Positions 469 through 8,164 of a stretch of 8,164 nt of DNA are shown piece by piece (position 1 is the first letter of the stretch; each line of letters begins with the position of its first letter). Origin of the DNA: Bordetella parapertussis (GTDB taxonomy: Bacteria > Pseudomonadota > Gammaproteobacteria > Burkholderiales > SG8-41). The position numbers and the translations under genes were made by a program. The notes under the pieces were generated by a model, which saw only the letters and a program-made list of their open reading frames with translations, was not told where the DNA came from and searched no databases. The stretch covers positions 1 through 8,164 of the forward strand of contig CAMBCD010000111.1 of assembly GCA_945863085.1 (NCBI GenBank), read 5' to 3'.

Positions 469-1434
469 TCATGCACGTTGCCGTTTTTGTCGTGGCGGCG
501 GAGTCTGCGCGGACGATGGGCCTGATTGCGGGAGTGTCCATGGCGGCGGGTCAAACAGGGCTGCCAAAAAATCCATGAACACGCGCACCTTGGGGGCCAA
601 TCGCTGTTGCTGGCGGTAAACGACCGAAATCTTGTAGCCGCCGGCTTTGTAGTCTTCCAGCGTTTCGACAAGTTCGCCGCGCGCGAGATAGGGCTGTGCG
701 TAACACTCGGGAATCTGGATCAGGCCGTATCCGGCCCGGGCGGCCTCGATCAGCAGCCCGATGCGGTTGAAGATCATCGCACTGTTGATCGTGATCTGGC
801 GCTCAGTCGTGCCGTTCTTCATTTTCCATTCGCGCACGCGGCCGGTTCGCGGCCGGCGGTAGTTGATGCAGGTGTGGCCATGAAGTTCATCGGGCGACTG
901 CGGCGCGCCGTGCGCGGCGAAATAGGCTGGCGCCGCGCAGATCACGTAGCGCGTGGTGGCGAGTTGCCGCACGGCAAGGCTGGAATCGTGCATTTCGCCG
1001 GTCTGCACTGAGACGTCGAGCCCGTCCTCAATGGTGTGCGGGACGAAATCCATGCACACGACCTCGACTGCGAGCGATGGGTGCTTGAGCATGAACTGCG
1101 GCAGGCTGGGGACGATCCACATGCGGCCCAGGGTCAGTGGCAGTCTTACCCGCAATCGTCCCACCACTGCCCGCGCGGCGCGGCTGACCAGGCCTTCCGC
1201 TTCCGCGAGTTCGGCCATGATCTGCTTGCAGCGGGCATAGAACTCGGCGCCTTCCGGCGTGGTGCTGAGCCCGCGCGTGCTGCGGATCAGCAGCCGCCCG
1301 GCGAGTTGTTTTTCCAGCCGGCTTAGCGTGCTGCTCACGGCTGCTGTGCTGACGCCCAGCGCCCGTGCAGCGCCGCTCAGGGTGCCGTGTTCGACCACGC
1401 GCAGAAAGACAAGAATGCCGTGCAGCCGGTCCAT
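469..1434 (-). CDS. LysR-type transcriptional regulator
   Basis: A 321-residue LysR-type regulator that probably controls the divergently transcribed aldolase-transporter genes. Residues 1-60 form the winged helix-turn-helix: MDRLHGILVFLRVVEHGTLS, then GAARALGVSTAAVSSTLSRLEKQL with the recognition helix near 28-40, ending in the typical STRGLSTTPEG turn. Residues about 92-295 form the periplasmic-binding-like effector domain, beginning VGRLRVRLP and including an internal FNRIGLLIEAARAGYGLIQIPE segment of the kind seen in most family members. The last 25 residues are rich in Pro, Gln and basic residues and extend beyond the usual length of about 300. The ATG at 1434 is the natural start because the HTH begins at once; the Shine-Dalgarno is weak. 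A perfect inverted repeat lies only 7 bp upstream of the start codon, which fits autoregulation. The effector is not readable, but LysR proteins of such loci usually sense the substrate or an intermediate. Confidence 0.95.
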   Translation of the reverse strand: MDRLHGILVFLRVVEHGTLSGAARALGVSTAAVSSTLSRLEKQLAGRLLIRSTRGLSTTPEGAEFYARCKQIMAELAEAEGLVSRAARAVVGRLRVRLPLTLGRMWIVPSLPQFMLKHPSLAVEVVCMDFVPHTIEDGLDVSVQTGEMHDSSLAVRQLATTRYVICAAPAYFAAHGAPQSPDELHGHTCINYRRPRTGRVREWKMKNGTTERQITINSAMIFNRIGLLIEAARAGYGLIQIPECYAQPYLARGELVETLEDYKAGGYKISVVYRQQQRLAPKVRVFMDFLAALFDPPPWTLPQSGPSSAQTPPPRQKRQRA

Positions 1435-1441
1435 GCAGGAC

Positions 1442-1469
1442 TCACTGTTAAGGTTGATCTTAACAGTGA
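1442..1469. promoter_or_regulatory. Perfect 11-bp inverted repeat, probable LysR operator
   Basis: TCACTGTTAAG (1442-1452) and CTTAACAGTGA (1459-1469) are exact reverse complements separated by 6 bp (GTTGAT). LysR-type regulators bind dyad sites with a T-N11-A core of variable length; here T1449 and A1462 give T-N12-A within the dyad. The site ends 7 bp from the lysR start codon and its centre is about 78 bp upstream of the start site predicted for the aldolase operon, a usual place for a LysR recognition/autorepression site. Assignment to this LysR protein is an inference from position and symmetry. Confidence 0.75.
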
Positions 1470-1474
1470 TTGTA
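1469..1474 (-). promoter_or_regulatory. Putative lysR -10 box
   Basis: Read on the minus strand, 1474-1469 is TACAAT, five of six matches to TATAAT. Transcription would start near 1462, inside the inverted repeat, leaving a leader of about 28 nt before the lysR ATG. The matching -35 (around 1492-1498) is poor. The geometry predicts that binding to the repeat blocks lysR transcription. Confidence 0.45.
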
Positions 1475-1520
1475 GGGCTTGCCGCCTTATGCCGCCAGCA
1501 GCTTGTTTCTAGAATTACCC

Positions 1521-1526
1521 TATAAG
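1521..1526 (+). promoter_or_regulatory. Putative -10 box of the aldolase-transporter operon
   Basis: TATAAG at 1521-1526 matches five of six -10 positions and lies in the most AT-rich part of the gap. There is no good -35 at 16-18 bp; TTGTTT at 1503-1508 is only 12 bp upstream. A weak -35 is common at activator-dependent promoters and fits activation by the divergent LysR protein. TAGAAT at 1510-1515 is an alternative -10. Confidence 0.45.
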
Positions 1527-1596
1527 AAAAAACGTGTGTGCGGAGGACCGGTTATTGCCGCGCGCCCCATCTCCAACCGGAAAAGGAACCCAGCCC

Positions 1597-2565
1597 ATGT
1601 CTACGGTGCTTACCGAAGCCCCTGCCGCCAGGTCGGCATCAAAAAAACAGCCCTTCGTGCTGAAGGGTGTGATGCAGGCCCCCGTGACCCCGCTGCATGA
1701 TGACTTCAGCGTGGATTACGATGGTCTCGAGAAAATGGTCAATTTCCATGTGGTCAACGGCGCGCCGGCCATCGCATGGCCGCATCACAAGGCGGAGTCG
1801 CCGAACCTCACGATGGAGGAGCGCAAGAAAGGCGCGGAAGTGCTGATCAAGACTGTCGCGCACCGTGTGCCGGTCTCCATCTTCGTCGGCAGTCTGTCGG
1901 AAGAAGACTCGCTGGACCTTACGCGCCATGCCGAGAAGGCCGGCGCTGACATGCTGTTGACCATTTCGCCGTACTGCCGCCGGCCGACGCAGGAGGAGAT
2001 ATTCCAATCGATCGTGCGGATCGGAGAGCACACGGACCTGCCGGTGCTCACCTACAACTCGCCCTGGCGCAATGGCGAGGGCGTGGAATTCACCAGCGAA
2101 CTCGTTGCGCGGCTGATCGAACGTCTGCCGAACTACGCGGGCATGAAGGACGCCAGCTTCCACAGCGAGAAATTTACCGAGATATCCCGCGTTGCGCTGC
2201 GCATGCGGCCCGGATTCTCGATCATCATGGGGCTCGAGCATCTTCTCGCCTCCTATCCGCTGGGGGCCTGCGGATCATTTTCGTCGTGCGGCGCCATCGC
2301 CCCCAATCTGTGCAACCGCTTTTTTGCCGCGCTCGAGGCAAATGACTGGGATACGGCGCGTACCTGCCAGTACAAGATCACCAAACTCTATCGCCTGTTC
2401 AAGGATCAGTATCCCTCGTCACTGAAGGGCGCCATGATTTCGATGGGGCGCAATGCAGGTCCGATCAGGCTGCCGCTGCCGACTGCATCGAAGGAACGTG
2501 TTGAATTCCTGTGCCGCCAGCTGGAAGAGCTGGACGTCATCAATACCGAGCCGCATGGCTGGTAA
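1597..2565 (+). CDS. DapA-like (DHDPS/NAL superfamily) aldolase, lysine-containing copy
   Basis: A 322-residue TIM-barrel protein of the dihydrodipicolinate synthase / N-acetylneuraminate lyase superfamily, whose members form a Schiff base between a lysine and a 2-oxo acid. The Schiff-base lysine is K184 in AGMKDAS, the active-site tyrosine is Y153 and a substrate-carboxylate-type arginine is R158, both in YNSPWRNG, matching YNVPSRTG of E. coli DapA (Y133, R138). The usual pyruvate-binding GTTGE is changed to H63-HKAE-67, and the second Tyr of the PYY motif is Cys (PYC, 125-127), so this is not expected to be true DHDPS. The N-terminus has about 20 extra residues before the first barrel strand (VLKGVMQAPVTPL). 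ATG 1597 has AAAAGGA 9 nt upstream; an in-frame TTG at 1555 with GGAGGA is an alternative adding 14 residues. The next gene is a paralogue 22 bp downstream. The substrate is unknown; lyase or hydratase action on an imported acid is likely. Confidence 0.9.
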   Translation: MSTVLTEAPAARSASKKQPFVLKGVMQAPVTPLHDDFSVDYDGLEKMVNFHVVNGAPAIAWPHHKAESPNLTMEERKKGAEVLIKTVAHRVPVSIFVGSLSEEDSLDLTRHAEKAGADMLLTISPYCRRPTQEEIFQSIVRIGEHTDLPVLTYNSPWRNGEGVEFTSELVARLIERLPNYAGMKDASFHSEKFTEISRVALRMRPGFSIIMGLEHLLASYPLGACGSFSSCGAIAPNLCNRFFAALEANDWDTARTCQYKITKLYRLFKDQYPSSLKGAMISMGRNAGPIRLPLPTASKERVEFLCRQLEELDVINTEPHGW

Positions 2566-2587
2566 TTTCCAATAAAAGGATTCCGCC

Positions 2588-3502
2588 ATGAGCACATTCA
2601 AACCCGGTCTGGTCCATGTTCCGGTAACGCCGTTCAAGGCCGACCAGAGCATCGATTACGACCTGTACGCCAAAGTGATCGAGTTTCATCTGAAACACGG
2701 CGCCGATTCACTGGCCGTGCCGATGCAACAGGCCGAAGACGTCAGCCTGAGGGAAACCGAACTGCGCCAGGTCATCGAGTTCGCGATCAAGCAGGTGAAA
2801 GGGCGGGTGCCTGTTATCGCGCACGTCAGTGACCCGGGCACCGGCATCGCCGTGGAGCGCGCGCGCTTTGCGGAAAAGGCAGGTGCATCCGCCATTGCGT
2901 CTCATCCGCCTTACTTCTGGCATCCGAAGCCTTCCATGGTCGTCGAGCACCTGGTGCAGATCGGCTCCGCAACCCGCCTGCCGTTTTTCATCTGCACGCC
3001 GGTCGTCGAAGACGCGGGCACGCACCTCACCGGCGAAATCGTGATGGATGTCATCAATCGACTCGACAACATCGCCGGTTTGGTTGACAGCAGCATGCGT
3101 TTTGTCTTCATGGCGGAAACGATTTCCCTGGGCCGCGAAGTCCGACCGGATTTCCAGTTGTTGTCGGGAACGGATTTCATGGTCCCCAACGCTGCGGTGG
3201 GCGGGGCCGGCGCCTTCTCGCCGTTGTCCAGCGTCGCGCCGAAACTTGCGCGCCGGCTCTACGAACTCTGCACGAAGCAGCAGCTCGTGCAGGCGCGGAC
3301 GTTGCAGGAAGACATGGCCGAACTGCACCATCTGGTGAAGCAGGGCGGACGCGCGGGCCTCAAGACCGCCATGCGCGCCATGGGGCGCGAATGCGGCGAT
3401 CCGCGGCTGCCCGGACTGAGCCTGGGCGAGCCCGTGATGAGCCAGCTCGCGGCGCGTGTTGCCGCGTGTCCGTACCTGAGCGCCGAACCCCGTGGCTGGT
3501 GA
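2588..3502 (+). CDS. DapA-like paralogue lacking the Schiff-base lysine
   Basis: A 304-residue second member of the DHDPS/NAL superfamily, clearly homologous to the gene before it along its whole length (VHVPVTPFKAD...YDLYAKVIEFHLKHGAD; AMRAMGRECGDPRLP; C-terminal EPRGW). Where the first copy has AGMKDAS this one reads AGLVDSS, so the Schiff-base lysine is V166. The YNSPWR segment aligns with ICTPVV (135-140), losing both Tyr and the carboxylate-binding Arg, and GTTGE is MQQAE (46-50). The DNA codon is an unambiguous GTT at 3083-3085. The frame is otherwise intact, base composition is like its neighbours, and AAAAGGA lies 7 nt before the ATG, so the gene seems actively maintained. It may be a non-catalytic partner of the first copy, a binding protein, or an enzyme using different chemistry. 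The superfamily assignment is firm; the function is unknown. Confidence 0.88.
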   Translation: MSTFKPGLVHVPVTPFKADQSIDYDLYAKVIEFHLKHGADSLAVPMQQAEDVSLRETELRQVIEFAIKQVKGRVPVIAHVSDPGTGIAVERARFAEKAGASAIASHPPYFWHPKPSMVVEHLVQIGSATRLPFFICTPVVEDAGTHLTGEIVMDVINRLDNIAGLVDSSMRFVFMAETISLGREVRPDFQLLSGTDFMVPNAAVGGAGAFSPLSSVAPKLARRLYELCTKQQLVQARTLQEDMAELHHLVKQGGRAGLKTAMRAMGRECGDPRLPGLSLGEPVMSQLAARVAACPYLSAEPRGW

Positions 3503-3589
3503 GCAAGGCCGTTGTGGTCATCTCCCGGGTTTTGACACCGTGTGCATGATTGACAGGCGCGCTGCTGCCGCCAGGTCGGAGCGGTGACC
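3503..3589 (+). other. Intergenic gap with two TTGACA hexamers
   Basis: This 87-bp gap between the second aldolase-like gene and the cyclodeaminase-like gene holds TTGACA at 3532-3537 and again at 3550-3555, exactly 18 bp apart. TTGACA is the consensus -35, but neither copy has a -10-like hexamer at 16-18 bp. No hairpin followed by a T-run is present, so transcription probably reads through. Confidence 0.3.
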
Positions 3590-4585
3590 ATGGTTGCCAT
3601 GCTCGACTTCGCTTCGATGGACGGCATTATTTCCATGCCGGATGCGATTGATCTGCTCGAGAAGACAATGGCACACGAAGCGCGGGGCAGTACATCGGTT
3701 TCCCCCAAGTTCATCACCGAATTCGAGGGCGGCGCGATGCGTGTGCTGTTCGCCGCCGACGGCGATGCCGGTTACTGCGCGCTGAAGGCGTACCACAACA
3801 TCAACGGCATCGGTGCGCGCTACGTCGTCCTGCTCTACAGCCTGAAGGGCGGCGAATTGCTGGCCGTGCTCGATGGCCGCCTGATCACCGATCTGCGGAC
3901 GGGTGCAGCGAGCGGCGTCGCGGCGCGACGTGTGCTGTTGGCGGGGGCGGTAAGCGTGGGGCTCGTCGGTTCGGGCAACCAGGCGCGCACGCAGCTCGAA
4001 AGTCTTGCGGCGGTCTATGGCATCGCGTCGGCGGCGGTTTACAGTCCGACGGCCGCAAACCGCGAGACTTTTGCCGCCGAGATGTCGATGAAATTGGGTT
4101 TTCCGGTCACACCCATGGACTCGGCGGAAGCCGCGGTCAGGGGGCGGCAGGTGGTGGCAACGGCGAGCAAGGCGCGCGATGCCGAGCCGGTGGTTCGCGC
4201 CGAATGGCTCAAGGACTGCCGGCTGCTTTGCGCGGTCGGCAACACACGCCGCCAGTTCGCCGAGGTGGACGTGGCGAGCTTCCGCAATGCCGGCATGGTC
4301 ATCGTCGATTCCGCGCATGCCCTGGAAGAGGCGGGTGAATTGCGGCAGGCCACCGCGGCCGGCGCGCTTCCCGCGACAAAGTGCGCGACGCTCGCGGAAG
4401 TGGTGACGGGTGTCAGGTCCGTGCCGTCCGAAGGGCTCGTCGTTTTCAAGTCGGTTGGTATGGCGCTGCAGGATCTTGCGCTTGCTGCGCATTATTACGA
4501 ACGGCTATCCGGCCGGCCCGGTACCGTCATGGCCCCCGACGTGGCAAGTTTGCGCGATCGCGGGAAGATGTTGGCCGGCGTATAA
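3590..4585 (+). CDS. Ornithine cyclodeaminase / mu-crystallin family enzyme
   Basis: A 331-residue NAD(P)-dependent enzyme of the ornithine cyclodeaminase/mu-crystallin/archaeal alanine dehydrogenase family. Members cyclise ornithine or reduce imines/oxidise amino acids in the cytoplasm. Visible features: the substrate-carboxylate lysine in ALKAYHN (K66), the LLAVLDGRLITDLRTGAASGVAA block (R103), the Rossmann fingerprint VGLVGSGNQARTQ (124-135), and the C-terminal VVFKSVGMALQDLALA motif (285-300). In P. putida cyclodeaminase the catalytic Asp228 sits in a GGDCPG stretch; here the equivalent is GNTRRQ with T219, so ornithine cyclisation is doubtful and a dehydrogenase or imine reductase role is more likely. 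ATG 3590 is preferred because GGAG (3578-3581) is 8 nt upstream; a GTG at 3584 would be only 2 nt away, and ATG 3599 is possible. The position between the aldolase-like and transporter genes suggests it acts on the same substrate. Confidence 0.9.
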   Translation: MVAMLDFASMDGIISMPDAIDLLEKTMAHEARGSTSVSPKFITEFEGGAMRVLFAADGDAGYCALKAYHNINGIGARYVVLLYSLKGGELLAVLDGRLITDLRTGAASGVAARRVLLAGAVSVGLVGSGNQARTQLESLAAVYGIASAAVYSPTAANRETFAAEMSMKLGFPVTPMDSAEAAVRGRQVVATASKARDAEPVVRAEWLKDCRLLCAVGNTRRQFAEVDVASFRNAGMVIVDSAHALEEAGELRQATAAGALPATKCATLAEVVTGVRSVPSEGLVVFKSVGMALQDLALAAHYYERLSGRPGTVMAPDVASLRDRGKMLAGV

Positions 4586-4687
4586 CGGGGATTCTGCACG
4601 GCAGAACAAAACATGCGCGGAGCGCACGGAAGTGTTGTATCGAGAACAAGAAGAAATTTTCTGATGTTCGACCTTGAGGAGGGTAAG
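4586..4687 (+). other. Intergenic leader before tctC
   Basis: This 102-bp gap contains a small hairpin, TTCTGC (4592-4597) and GCAGAA (4601-4606) with a 3-nt loop, followed by an A-rich rather than T-rich stretch, so not a typical intrinsic terminator. The second half is AT-rich and ends in the strong Shine-Dalgarno AGGAGG (4677-4682), 5 nt before ATG 4688. No convincing -35/-10 pair was found. Confidence 0.35.
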
Positions 4688-5695
4688 ATGAAATCAAAAT
4701 TCGGTTATTGCCAGATTATTTCGGTTTTTATGGCGGGTGCAGGGTTCTACGCCGGCTGTCCGGCGATGGCTGCGGAAGACGGATGGCAGCCGCAAAGTTC
4801 TGTCGAAATTGTGGTGCCGACCGGGGCAGGTGGCGAGAACGACCGTGTGGCACGTTTCATCCAGCGAATTATCGAGCAGAAGAAACTGGCGGCGACGCCG
4901 GTCGTGGTCGTGAACAAGGCGGGCGGCAACCAGGTTCTTGCGACCGCTTACGTTGCCAAAAAAACCGCGGATCCCCACGCCCTCCTGTATGCGACGGGTA
5001 CCATTCAAAGCAATGAAATCGCAGGGGTGTCCGACCTGAGCTATCGCGACCTGACGCCAATCGCGAAGCTGCGATGCGACAATACAGCGGTGACCGTTGC
5101 CTTCGATTCGCCCATCAAGGACATGCCTGACCTGATTCGGAGACTCAAAGCCGACGTCAAGTCCGTATCGTTCGCAACGGCGTCCCGTGGTGGCGCAAAC
5201 AATCTGGTGCTGGCCAAGGCGCTGCGTTCGGGTGGCATCGATCCCAACGGCTTGAAGCTCATTGTATTCAAGACCAACGCACAATCCATGACAGCGGTCA
5301 TGGGTAAACATGTCGACTCCGTTGGCTCCTCGGTCAGCGCCGCCTTCAAGAACTTCGAAGCGGGCAAACTGCGGATCCTCGCCGTTTCGTCGCCGAAGCG
5401 GCTCGGGGGAGCGCTGGCTGATGTGCCGACGATGGCTGAAGCCGGCCTCAATGTCAGCGGTGTGAGCAACTGCCGTTATGTATATGCGCCGAAAGGCATT
5501 TCCGCCGCCCAGCGGTCTTTCTGGGAAAAGGCGATGGCTGTTGTGAACAACGATGAAGAATGGAAATCCGATATCGCGCTGAGAAACCAGCAGCAGGATT
5601 TTGTGATCGGCAAGGATCTCGAGGCCGGGCTGGAGGAGACTTACAACGCCACCAAGGCTGCAATGGCGGACATCGGACTTGCCAAAACCAAGTAA
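4688..5695 (+). CDS. tctC: TctC/Bug periplasmic binding protein of the TTT transporter
   Basis: A 335-residue solute-binding subunit that would deliver a carboxylate to the TctAB membrane complex encoded just downstream. Residues 1-28 form a Sec signal peptide: MKSK, a hydrophobic core (IISVFMAGAGF) and a likely cut after AMA (AMA|AED). The mature part has Bug features: VEIVVPTGAGGENDRVAR (39-56), the VVVVNKAGG loop (72-80), LSYRDLTPIAKL (117-128), the KNFEAGKLRILAVSSPKR strand (221-238) and ADVPTMAEAG (244-253). C24 sits in YAGC, but -3 is Tyr rather than Leu/Val, so a lipoprotein is less likely. C130 and C262 could form a disulphide. ATG 4688 is chosen because AGGAGG is 5 nt upstream and the signal peptide starts there; upstream in-frame ATGs (4613, 4664) lack ribosome sites. 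The ligand is unknown and differs from that of the orphan Bug at 2-418, as their binding loops are dissimilar. Confidence 0.94.
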   Translation: MKSKFGYCQIISVFMAGAGFYAGCPAMAAEDGWQPQSSVEIVVPTGAGGENDRVARFIQRIIEQKKLAATPVVVVNKAGGNQVLATAYVAKKTADPHALLYATGTIQSNEIAGVSDLSYRDLTPIAKLRCDNTAVTVAFDSPIKDMPDLIRRLKADVKSVSFATASRGGANNLVLAKALRSGGIDPNGLKLIVFKTNAQSMTAVMGKHVDSVGSSVSAAFKNFEAGKLRILAVSSPKRLGGALADVPTMAEAGLNVSGVSNCRYVYAPKGISAAQRSFWEKAMAVVNNDEEWKSDIALRNQQQDFVIGKDLEAGLEETYNATKAAMADIGLAKTK

Positions 5696-5846: not shown

Positions 5847-6311
5847 ATGGGCAATCGGATTACGTTCTGTTTTGCCGTCGTTCTCGCGGCGGTGTATCTC
5901 TACGCCACCGGGCAGTTTGCGGTTATGCATCTCAGCGATCCGCTGGGGCCCCAGGCATTTCCGCGCCTGCTCGGCATCGGGCTGCTGCTGACTGCCGCCG
6001 GGCTGCTGGTCGAGACGCTGCGCACCGGGAAGTCCGGCAGCACGGACGGGGAGGGGAAGGTGCCGGGTGAAGGGCGCTACTACGCGGTCGTCATCGGAGC
6101 TACGATCTGGACCGCCCTGTATTTCGCGGCGTTCGAATGGCTGGGTTATGCGATTTCGACCGGCATCTACCTGCTCGTCCTGATGGCGTATTTCCGCCGG
6201 GGCAAGTGGATCAGCAACGGGCTCACTTCGGTGCTGTACAGTTTCGGCAGCTACGTGATCTTCAAAAAACTGCTGCTTGTCGCGCTGCCGGCGGGTTTCT
6301 TGCCTTTCTAG
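5847..6311 (+). CDS. tctB: TctB small membrane subunit of TTT transporter
   Basis: A 154-residue small integral membrane protein of the tripartite tricarboxylate transporter. Hydrophobic segments are visible near residues 5-23, 40-57, 78-96, 98-116 and 126-150, with a hydrophilic, Gly/charge-rich loop at about 59-77. The family-typical DPLGPQAFPRLLG stretch (31-43), after the first membrane span, is present. ATG 5847 follows AGGAG (5838-5842) at 4 nt. It stops at TAG 6309-6311, 11 bp before tctA, indicating translational coupling. TctB is the least conserved TTT subunit and is required together with TctA for uptake; identity here rests on the FPR motif, the hydropathy pattern, size and position between tctC and tctA. 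Confidence 0.9.
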   Translation: MGNRITFCFAVVLAAVYLYATGQFAVMHLSDPLGPQAFPRLLGIGLLLTAAGLLVETLRTGKSGSTDGEGKVPGEGRYYAVVIGATIWTALYFAAFEWLGYAISTGIYLLVLMAYFRRGKWISNGLTSVLYSFGSYVIFKKLLLVALPAGFLPF

Positions 6312-6322
6312 GGCCGGCTCTT

Positions 6323-7837
6323 ATGGAAACGCTGAACCATATCCTCAACGGCTTCGCGGTGGCGCTGCAGCCGATCAATCTTTGGTACACGCTGGTCGGC
6401 TGCTTTCTGGGCACGGTGGTCGGGGTGTTACCCGGCATCGGCCCGGCAGCTGGCATCGCTCTGCTGATTCCCGTGACCTATGGCATGAACCCGGGGTCGG
6501 CCCTCATCATGCTCGCGGGGATTTACTACGGCGCAAAATACGGCGGCTCGACAACCTCCATCCTGATCCGCACGCCCGGCGAATCCTCTTCAGTCATGAC
6601 CTGCATCGATGGTTATGCGATGGCGCTCAAGGGGCGCGCGGGTGCGGCGCTGGCCGTATCGGCGATCGGCTCCTTCATCGCCGGCACCATCGGTGTAATC
6701 GGGCTGTCGCTGTTTGCCGTGCCGCTTGCCGAGATGGCAATTGAATTCGGCCCTGCCGAATTTTTCACGCTCATGCTGTTTGCGATGACCGCAGTGGCTT
6801 CGCTCACCGGCAGATCGTTGCCCAAGGGGCTCTTTTCGATGTTTCTCGGATTGATGCTCGCAACCGTCGGTATCGACCTGCAGAGCGCCTATCCGCGTTA
6901 CACGATGGGCGTTCTGGAGTTTCAGGAAGGAATCAGCTTCGTAATTGTGGCAGTGGGCTTGTTCGCGGTGGCGGAAGTCCTGCAGGGCCTGGAAATGCTG
7001 GTCAGGGGAACTGCTCCCGACGTGATCCGGATTTCGGGCAAGCTGTGGCTCACGCGGGAAGAGTGGAAGAGGTCGATCGGGCCCATCTGGCGCGGTGGCA
7101 TCCTGGGCTTCATCATCGGTGTTCTGCCGGGTGCAGGCAGCACGATTGCCTCGGTCCTTTCCTACACCATGGAAAGAAAACTGTCCAAGCACCCGGAGGA
7201 GTTCGGGGCAGGCGCGATTGAGGGCGTGGCCGGGCCGGAAGCGGCGAACAATTCGGACACGGCGGGTGCTCTGGTGCCGTTGTTGACGCTGGGCCTGCCG
7301 GGCGGGGCGGTCACCGCGGTCCTGCTGGGGGCGTTCATCATGTACGGGATCCAGCCGGGCCCGCAGTTGTTCAAGGAGCATCCTGCAGTCGTCTGGGGGC
7401 TCATCAACAGCATGTACGTAGGCAACATCATGCTGCTGGTCCTCAACCTGCCGCTCATCGGATTGTTTGTGCGCCTGCTCTACATCCCCAGGGGTATGCT
7501 CTATCCGCTGATCATGGCCATTGCGGCGATCGGGGTTTACTCCGCCAACGGCAGTGTCGTTGACTTGTACATGCTGCTTTTCTTCGGGGTCGCCGGCTAT
7601 CTGTTCAACAAGGCCGACATTCCGATCACGCCACTGGTGCTGGGCCTGGTTCTGGGAGACATTCTGGAGCAATCATTCCGGCAGGCGCTGACGCTTTCTG
7701 ACGGGAGTCTGGGCATTTTCTTCAGCAGCCGCATCACCGTGACGCTGATGTTGCTCACCGTGATATCAATTGTTTGGCCGCTTGTTTCCTCGCGTATGAG
7801 TGCGTCTAAAAAGTTGGCAGCCAAATCCAGCGACTGA
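6323..7837 (+). CDS. tctA: TctA large membrane subunit of TTT transporter
   Basis: A 504-residue large permease subunit, of the usual TctA length with about 11-12 membrane spans, that moves the substrate across the inner membrane using ion gradients. It contains the two pseudo-symmetric signature regions: GTVVGVLPGIGPAAGIALLIP (30-50) followed by IYYGAKYGGSTTSILIRTPGE (67-87) and DGYAMALKGRAGAAL (96-110); then IIGVLPGAGSTIASVLSY (264-281), EGVAGPEAANNSDTAGALVPLLTLGLPG (300-327) and a C-terminal segment PITPLVLGLVLGDILEQSFRQAL (434-456). ATG 6323 is chosen because family homology starts there and AGGG (6310-6313) lies 9 nt upstream; the frame is open further upstream within tctB, but that part is a shadow of tctB. 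It ends with a basic cytoplasmic-type tail (SASKKLAAKSSD). The specificity cannot be assigned from sequence alone. Confidence 0.97.
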   Translation: METLNHILNGFAVALQPINLWYTLVGCFLGTVVGVLPGIGPAAGIALLIPVTYGMNPGSALIMLAGIYYGAKYGGSTTSILIRTPGESSSVMTCIDGYAMALKGRAGAALAVSAIGSFIAGTIGVIGLSLFAVPLAEMAIEFGPAEFFTLMLFAMTAVASLTGRSLPKGLFSMFLGLMLATVGIDLQSAYPRYTMGVLEFQEGISFVIVAVGLFAVAEVLQGLEMLVRGTAPDVIRISGKLWLTREEWKRSIGPIWRGGILGFIIGVLPGAGSTIASVLSYTMERKLSKHPEEFGAGAIEGVAGPEAANNSDTAGALVPLLTLGLPGGAVTAVLLGAFIMYGIQPGPQLFKEHPAVVWGLINSMYVGNIMLLVLNLPLIGLFVRLLYIPRGMLYPLIMAIAAIGVYSANGSVVDLYMLLFFGVAGYLFNKADIPITPLVLGLVLGDILEQSFRQALTLSDGSLGIFFSSRITVTLMLLTVISIVWPLVSSRMSASKKLAAKSSD

Positions 7838-7943: not shown

Positions 7944-8164
7944 ATGAACGACATGTTGCGGGCTCACTTGAGCCCTGAAGTCATCCTGCAGCAACTTAAA
8001 CAACACGGTGTTACGCATGTCGTCTGGCTTCCGGACAGCGAAACCAACTGGCTGTACCTGCTGATGAAGGCGGAGCCGTCGCTGACGCTGGTGGCGGTGC
8101 CGCGCGAAGGGCTGGCTTGCTCGGTCGCCGCCGGGCTTGCCGCGGGTGGTGCGGTGCCGGTGAT
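7944..8164 (+). CDS. TPP-binding decarboxylase N-terminal domain, 5' part
   Basis: The first 73 residues of a thiamine-diphosphate enzyme resembling the alpha (N-terminal, PYR-domain) subunit of sulfopyruvate decarboxylase (ComD) and phosphonopyruvate decarboxylase. Visible: VILQQLKQHGVTHVVWLPDSE (13-33), with the VPDS-like LPDS turn, then TLVAVPREGLACSVAAGLAAGG (48-69), which carries the conserved glutamate E55 that activates the TPP aminopyrimidine ring, within the PREG motif. ATG 7944 is preceded by GGGA at 7931-7934 (9 nt spacing); ATG 7939 runs straight into TGA. The rest, and probably a separate beta (PP-domain) subunit, lies beyond the window. It would decarboxylate a 2-oxo acid, plausibly one produced or imported by the upstream system. 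TPP superfamily membership is clear; the exact subfamily is a good guess. Confidence 0.85.
   Translation, partial: MNDMLRAHLSPEVILQQLKQHGVTHVVWLPDSETNWLYLLMKAEPSLTLVAVPREGLACSVAAGLAAGGAVPV

Follow-up and report, generated by a model that had tools for sequence, protein, structure and literature searches.

The window, by which we mean the whole stretch of 8,164 nucleotides analyzed, contains two consecutive genes for proteins with the DHDPS/NAL fold. Copy 1 (C1; 1597..2565, + strand) encodes 322 amino acids (aa), and copy 2 (C2; 2588..3502, + strand) encodes 304 aa. Both belong to the PF00701 superfamily, with scores of 153.2 bits (8.1e-45) for copy 1 and 133.7 bits (7.1e-39) for copy 2 against a cut-off of 22.1 bits. 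The original prediction had described the copy 2 gene as uninterrupted and preceded by a strong ribosome site. Indeed, its open reading frame (ORF) was open, and the sequence AAAGGA at 2575..2580 (+ strand), 7 nt before the ATG, fits a probable ribosome-binding site.

A gene for a LysR-type regulator (469..1434, - strand; PF03466/PF00126) is divergent from copy 1. Between the two lies a perfect 11-bp inverted repeat with a 6-bp spacer, TCACTGTTAAG-N6-CTTAACAGTGA (1442..1469), which likely represents a LysR operator-like element. The same repeat was present in the MAG contig L001, and no repeat matching it was found in the MAG contig L002. The copy-2 proteins of L001 and L002 are 97% and 75% identical, respectively, to that of the window, and the title Bordetella parapertussis looks doubtful for both contigs. 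A promoter scan of positions 1430 to 4700 gave no sigma-70-like site.

Downstream of copy 2, the + strand carries genes for an ornithine cyclodeaminase/mu-crystallin (OCD) family protein, an imine reductase-type partner (3590..4585; PF02423, 2.1e-45), a TctC/Bug periplasmic binding protein (4688..5695; PF03401), and the membrane subunits TctB (5847..6311; PF07331) and TctA (6323..7837; PF01970). The start of a gene for a TPP enzyme (7944-8162) is cut by the window edge; it resembles the alpha subunit of sulfopyruvate decarboxylase at 22.8 bits, far under the cut-off. The neighborhood of copy 2 was also surveyed at other places, which fall into two clades, A and B. Within 5.5 kb of copy 2, and counted as lower bounds owing to contig ends, an OCD gene was present at 25 of the 31 clade-A and 5 of the 36 clade-B places, a Bug/TctC gene of the commoner cluster at 23/31 and 26/36, a Bug/TctC gene of the window's kind at 18/31 clade-A places, and an SDR gene at 11/31 and 16/36; in clade B, genes for a GST (10/36) or an amidase (7/36) recurred as well.

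The presence of DHDPS-family and OCD-family genes in one neighborhood with transporters is shared with hydroxyproline-type clusters, which, according to the accessible text of PMC4113996, comprise a DHDPS-family deaminase, an OCD-family reductase, and transporters. Those clusters differ from the locus described here in that the same text mentions no lysine-less twin; moreover, none of the nine window proteins scanned matched proline racemase or DAAO.

Active-site positions of the two copies

The Schiff-base lysine defines the much-studied DHDPS/NAL superfamily. As originally predicted, copy 1 keeps this lysine of the sixth strand (Lys184, numbered from the ATG at 1597; codon AAG at 2146..2148, + strand), and copy 2 has a valine instead (Val166; codon GTT at 3083..3085, + strand). 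In HMMER alignments of copy 2, V166 aligned with the Schiff-base lysine of MosA/2vc6 and of 3na8, and G164 and D167 were in register with 2vc6. The model of copy 2 placed V166 within strand 162-167, which by our own count would be the sixth strand of the barrel. No other lysine was seen at the catalytic position of copy 2. Two of its lysines were considered as displaced catalytic residues and rejected. K114 was not fixed (92 K and 29 R in 121 rows); K259 was conserved, but it is common to C1 and the DHDPS reference, and the model places it in a C-terminal helix.

The catalytic Tyr and Arg had also been reported as lost from copy 2. Tyr153 of copy 1 corresponded to Cys136 of copy 2, and the column of the Arg held V140 or E141, depending on a single gap, so that the Arg is absent either way. 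Two changes beyond those noted earlier were found. In the column of Thr44, copy 2 has Gln47 and copy 1 has His64. The column of Tyr107 (E. coli DHDPS numbering), which we take to be that of the interface tyrosine, is occupied by Phe110 in copy 2 (2915..2917, + strand) and Cys127 in copy 1.

A G-x-x-G-E motif with T44/T45 is typical of the superfamily. It was found in neither copy: unlike DHDPS, where the sequence is GTTGE, copy 1 has PHHKAE and copy 2 has PMQQAE, with the Glu kept in both, and both copies end in EP-x-GW. The C-terminal EP-x-GW was found in 120/120 of the close and 115/120 of the distant C2 homologues, in 119/120 of the C1 homologues, in 8/8 stand-alone relatives, and in 0/6 canonical DapA proteins. 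In copy 1 (residues 62-67), HKAE replaces TTGE, with H in 120/120 and K in 120/120 of the listed homologues; the chemistry of copy 1 may therefore differ from that of known aldolases.

The expectation that copy 2 retains the fold was confirmed by its PF00701 match together with a (beta/alpha)8 model with C-terminal helices. The best of five models had a pLDDT of 89.1 and a pTM of 0.90 (pLDDT of the others, 86.8 to 61.3). Its TM scores, normalized by query length, were 0.83 to 0.88 to the 50 listed chains, which were mostly DHDPS, with some NAL and YagE.

Fixation of the lysine loss and selection on copy 2

The lysine column was then compared among homologues. In the best 120 of 1748 copy-2 homologues it held V in 112, I in 6, L in 1, and D in 1; in the 120 listed of 1981 homologues from a more distant copy-2 branch it held V in 118, A in 1, and I in 1. 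Lys was present in 120/120 of the listed copy-1 homologues (of 1210). We also examined 73 DNA stretches (the window, L001-L009, L041-L055, and L078-L125), which yielded 67 copy-2 ORFs, leaving two short L049 fragments out of the class counts. These had V in 54 cases, A in 8, I in 4, and F in 1, and copy 1 had Lys at 66/66 genomic loci. Chance or a sequencing error was rejected as the source of the substitution, Lys being found in 0/120 of the close and 0/120 of the distant homologues (0/240 of those listed, which were 294-313 aa in length) and in 0/67 of the genomic copy-2 ORFs.

A relative outside the copy-2 clade (L103, G803:C68; ORF ending at 5032, + strand) had Met at the lysine position. 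It probably has Ala at Tyr133, and its sequence suggests a second, separate lysine loss in the group.

Among the 23 closest pairs (copy-2 dS, 0.10-0.59), which are not independent, as several share a member, dN/dS was 0.03-0.30 for copy 2 and 0-0.11 for copy 1. Between the window and L001, the dN/dS of copy 2 was 0.027. Usable dS values (<1.3) were available for 1134 of 2080 pairs, over which the median was 0.35 for C2 and 0.26 for C1, and single copy-2 values reached 0.90 among the 40 pairs listed. These higher values probably reflect dS saturation. C2 evolves 1.7 to 2.1 times faster than C1. Altogether, purifying selection on copy 2 among close pairs is well supported by these sequence comparisons. 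The selection proposed originally thus holds in view of the low dN/dS in close pairs and the consistent absence of Lys, and copy 2 is neither a lone gene nor under relaxed selection.

Pairing of the two genes and partition of residues

A search of 74 genomes, all from one family, gave 57 strong C1 places (at least 406 bits; 57 of the 69 listed matches) and 57 strong C2 places (at least 370 bits), which formed 55 adjacent pairs, with copy 1 first and gaps of -1 to 495 nt (median, 44 nt). The 12 rows omitted from the C1 list comprised one C1 fragment located where its contig begins (G817:C20) and otherwise weak matches such as stand-alone relatives and HI/HV types. Strong C1 and strong C2 were held by exactly the same 32 genomes. 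Four places, in G801, G004:C299, and G795, were unpaired. In G801, the C2 was cut at the contig start; in G004:C299, a Bug gene lay between one C2 and one C1; and in G795 (L140, C464), a full-length C1 was located next to an OCD gene, with no C2 in the 1.5 kb fetched downstream. In the same genome (L081, C545), a C2 beside a C1 broken by a stop was counted among the 55 pairs.

Similarly, 65 of the 67 copy-2 ORFs had copy 1 directly upstream on the same strand. As for the other two, the copy 2 of L119 begins at the first bases of its contig, and that of L008 has a lysine-bearing relative directly upstream and copy 1 two genes downstream. Some genomes carry several pairs. Two pairs in direct succession were found in L005 (9047-12865), and three pairs, each with its own copy 1, were found on one contig (L041 and L042, G002:C23).

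Matches to profile A1 were found in 33/74 genomes of the family, including G804, which had only a stand-alone relative. With only 5 or 6 candidates scored per genome, A1 matches occurred in 11/399 genomes drawn from the order and in 1/398 from the phylum (G008 itself), and A2 matches occurred in 1/369 genomes from the class (again G008 itself). Plasmid carriage was also considered and rejected: the 20 listed plasmid matches were 28-30% identical, and no record reached 60%.

A quick LG tree was built from 152 rows, with canonical DapA as the root. In it, C1 and C2 each formed one clade with an SH-aLRT of 100. Eight stand-alone relatives, referred to as singles because no copy 2 was present in the fetched stretch, branched outside the pair with 85% support. 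Five HI/HV-type relatives grouped with copy 1 (84%), and of these, one (L008) lies beside a copy 2 and four do not. They had Lys in 4/5, and at the Tyr107 column two had Tyr and three had His. Given the support of 84-85% and the long-branch joins that treekit flagged at these forks, the sequence in which duplication and pairing took place is uncertain. The C1 of L088, which is cut by a contig end, was left out of both the tree and the mirror-tree test, so that 64 of 65 pairs were used. The mirror-tree r was 0.81 over these 64 pairs, and the best of 2000 shuffles gave 0.14; within the two clades r was 0.52 and 0.79, with 99.9% of shuffles below 0.25 and 0.21, respectively. Co-inheritance of copy 1 and copy 2 is therefore well supported by the sequence data. 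Because the two genes are nearly always side by side, the "dead" copy most likely serves the live one as a permanent partner subunit, rather than being a gene in decay.

We then examined how residues of the singles are distributed between the two copies. K161, Y133, and Y107 occurred together in 8/8 singles. In copy 1, Tyr133 was kept in 66/66 sequences and Tyr107 in 0/65 (F in 35, C in 28, and V in 2). In copy 2, Tyr133 was present in 18/67 and Tyr107 in 36/67, the other 31 having Phe. Conversely, H10 and H121 of the singles were kept in C2 and lost from C1, with H10 in 66/67 C2 sequences versus Q in 65/66 C1 sequences. Position 46 was M in 67/67 C2 versus H in 57/66 C1, and H79 was present in 67/67 C2 versus 35/66 C1. 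E141 (66/67) and D167 (67/67) were conserved in C2 of both clades. Judging from the alignment, these conserved residues of C2 would be placed at strand ends, in the pocket. If the singles show the ancestral state, as we assume, this partition would be the pattern expected when a homodimer becomes an obligate heterodimer by complementary losses. According to the accessible text of PMC4788353, the interface tyrosine of DHDPS (Tyr109 in S. aureus) crosses the dimer interface and completes the active site of the neighboring subunit. A literal donation of this tyrosine does not apply to the pair of the window because its clade has Cys (C1) and Phe (C2) there.

The assembly of the two barrels was modeled by AlphaFold2 with a C1-C2 read-through chain of 656 aa from L083, one of the loci that have both genes in the same frame, with the stops read as Gly. 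The alignment consisted of 15 such chains and 46 single-gene rows. The model had a pLDDT of 87.8 and a pTM of 0.87, with a pLDDT below 50 for the linker (307-344). An unsure placement of the barrels would be expected, without our having computed it, to give a pTM of roughly 0.5, so the two barrels seem to be fixed relative to each other in the model; this pTM carries no information on a preference of C1:C2 over C1:C1 or C2:C2, and AlphaFold, having seen many DHDPS homodimers, would probably bring any pair of such domains into contact. A C1:C2 assembly is thus predicted, and its arrangement would be that of the tight dimer.

Possible functions of copy 2

The original prediction had assigned copy 2 a non-aldolase role as a partner, a ligand binder, or a protein with new chemistry. 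Such a role is supported, and the partner is favored among the three because of the 55 adjacent pairs, the mirrored trees, and the split of ancestral-looking residues between the copies. We thus consider that copy 1 and copy 2 are probably two subunits of one heteromeric enzyme of the NAL/DHDPS superfamily. Copy 1, with Lys184 and Tyr153, would bind a 2-oxo acid as a Schiff base. Copy 2, without Lys and usually without Tyr133, would be non-catalytic and fill the other half of the dimer, where it would complete and shape the active site of copy 1 across the interface and might stabilize or regulate the complex. A self-sufficient homodimer would have been duplicated, and complementary losses would have led to mutual dependence. 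The substrate may be a carboxylic acid imported by the neighboring Bug/TTT system. However, the co-occurrence and the mirrored trees would likewise be compatible with two separate enzymes that share a pathway and an operon, the clade of the window has Phe (C2) and Cys (C1) at the interface position, and the faster evolution of C2 and its all-pair median dN/dS of 0.35 do not speak for this reading.

Because copy 2 has conserved strand-end residues of its own, ligand binding or new chemistry in it has to be weighed as well. Copy 2 could be an enzyme in its own right. It would use the old pocket (H10, H79, E141, and D167) for a lysine-independent reaction on what copy 1 produces or consumes, in which case the two would act sequentially and need not bind each other. 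The conservation of H10, M46, H79, E141, and D167 in C2 of both clades and the purifying selection among close pairs agree with this proposal, but C2 is variable in the columns of Tyr133 and Thr44, H10 occurs in 8/8 lysine-bearing singles and is therefore no new acquisition, and NAL-fold chemistry without the lysine was not found in the titles and abstract openings searched; we regard it as unlikely. Alternatively, copy 2 could be a regulatory protein that senses a ligand, or an allosteric subunit, and would then bind a 2-oxo acid non-covalently and control copy 1. The same strand-end residues would suit such a role, and the change of lysine to V, A, or I in 66/67 sequences should leave the pocket open. 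A dead paralogue that activates its partner has a precedent in the accessible text of PMC3663545. Nevertheless, ligand binding by copy 2 is hypothetical and the proposal overlaps with the heteromeric enzyme, so that as a separate explanation it seems improbable.

That copy 2 is merely a decaying duplicate under relaxed selection is scarcely credible. The rate and the all-pair median dN/dS of C2 would be in line with decay, as would a few worn copies, such as the L049 fragments and a short-ended C2 in L048. These are outweighed by the dN/dS of 0.027 between the window and L001 and of 0.03-0.30 in the 23 closest pairs, by the lack of Lys in all 240 listed homologues (294-313 aa), and by the near-strict pairing; decay specific to the window would show frameshifts, yet the ORF is open. 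Within a C1:C2 complex, finally, the lysine-free pocket of copy 2 (His10, His79, Glu141, and Asp167) might catalyze a second, non-Schiff-base step on the product of copy 1, which we consider quite unlikely; if this pocket were active, the pair would be a bifunctional two-barrel enzyme with a NAL-fold active site working without lysine.

To return to the heteromeric enzyme, copy 1 and copy 2 resemble DHDPS/NAL proteins (PF00701; E. coli DapA and MosA 2vc6) in fold and length, copy 1 keeps the equivalents of Lys161 and Tyr133, and a dimer is predicted. They differ in that DHDPS is described in the accessible literature as having equivalent active sites within a dimer or homotetramer, and here one of two paralogues is without the lysine. 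On sequence grounds, copy 2 would qualify as a pseudoenzyme or prozyme, being a paralogue with lost catalytic residues that is maintained by selection together with an active-looking paralogue. According to the accessible text of PMC3663545, an impaired and a catalytically dead ("prozyme") paralogue of trypanosomatid deoxyhypusine synthase form one active heterotetramer, and the active sites of the human enzyme lie between monomers. The likeness would be one of mechanism; family and reaction are different, the system is eukaryotic, and it was established by experiment, as opposed to the sequence and prediction used here. In plant vitamin B6 synthesis, PDX1.2, a beta/alpha-barrel pseudoenzyme without active-site residues, co-assembles with its catalytic paralogue PDX1.3, as stated in the accessible part of PMC6829848. 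Unlike copy 2, PDX1.2 belongs to a different family and is a heat-induced regulator, whose dispensability is the topic of that paper, and unlike PDX1.2/PDX1.3, copy 1 and copy 2 have adjoining genes in nearly every locus. A heteromeric L-fuconate dehydratase, not of the NAL superfamily, is mentioned in the accessible part of PMC6336799. No lysine-less or heteromeric NAL-superfamily pair was found in the titles and abstract openings of the open-access literature. If the proposed heteromer is correct, the fixed lysine-plus/lysine-minus pair would amount to a class I aldolase-type enzyme of heteromeric build in an environmental clade of considerable size, and comparison with the stand-alone relatives would make it possible to follow, for each residue, how function was divided between the duplicates.

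A role of the pair in housekeeping lysine biosynthesis is unlikely because 6/6 further places fetched, one for each of six pair-bearing genomes, carried a separate canonical DapA-like gene (TT, Y107, Y133, and K). Neither copy reached the cut-off of the DapA equivalog TIGR00674 (206.15 bits; C1, 155.6; C2, 126.6). In those source records that provide a name, either gene is usually designated "4-hydroxy-tetrahydrodipicolinate synthase" or dihydrodipicolinate synthase/N-acetylneuraminate lyase family protein. The former name is very likely incorrect for each of the two copies, which would affect pathway inferences based on these genes in metagenomes of Burkholderiales.
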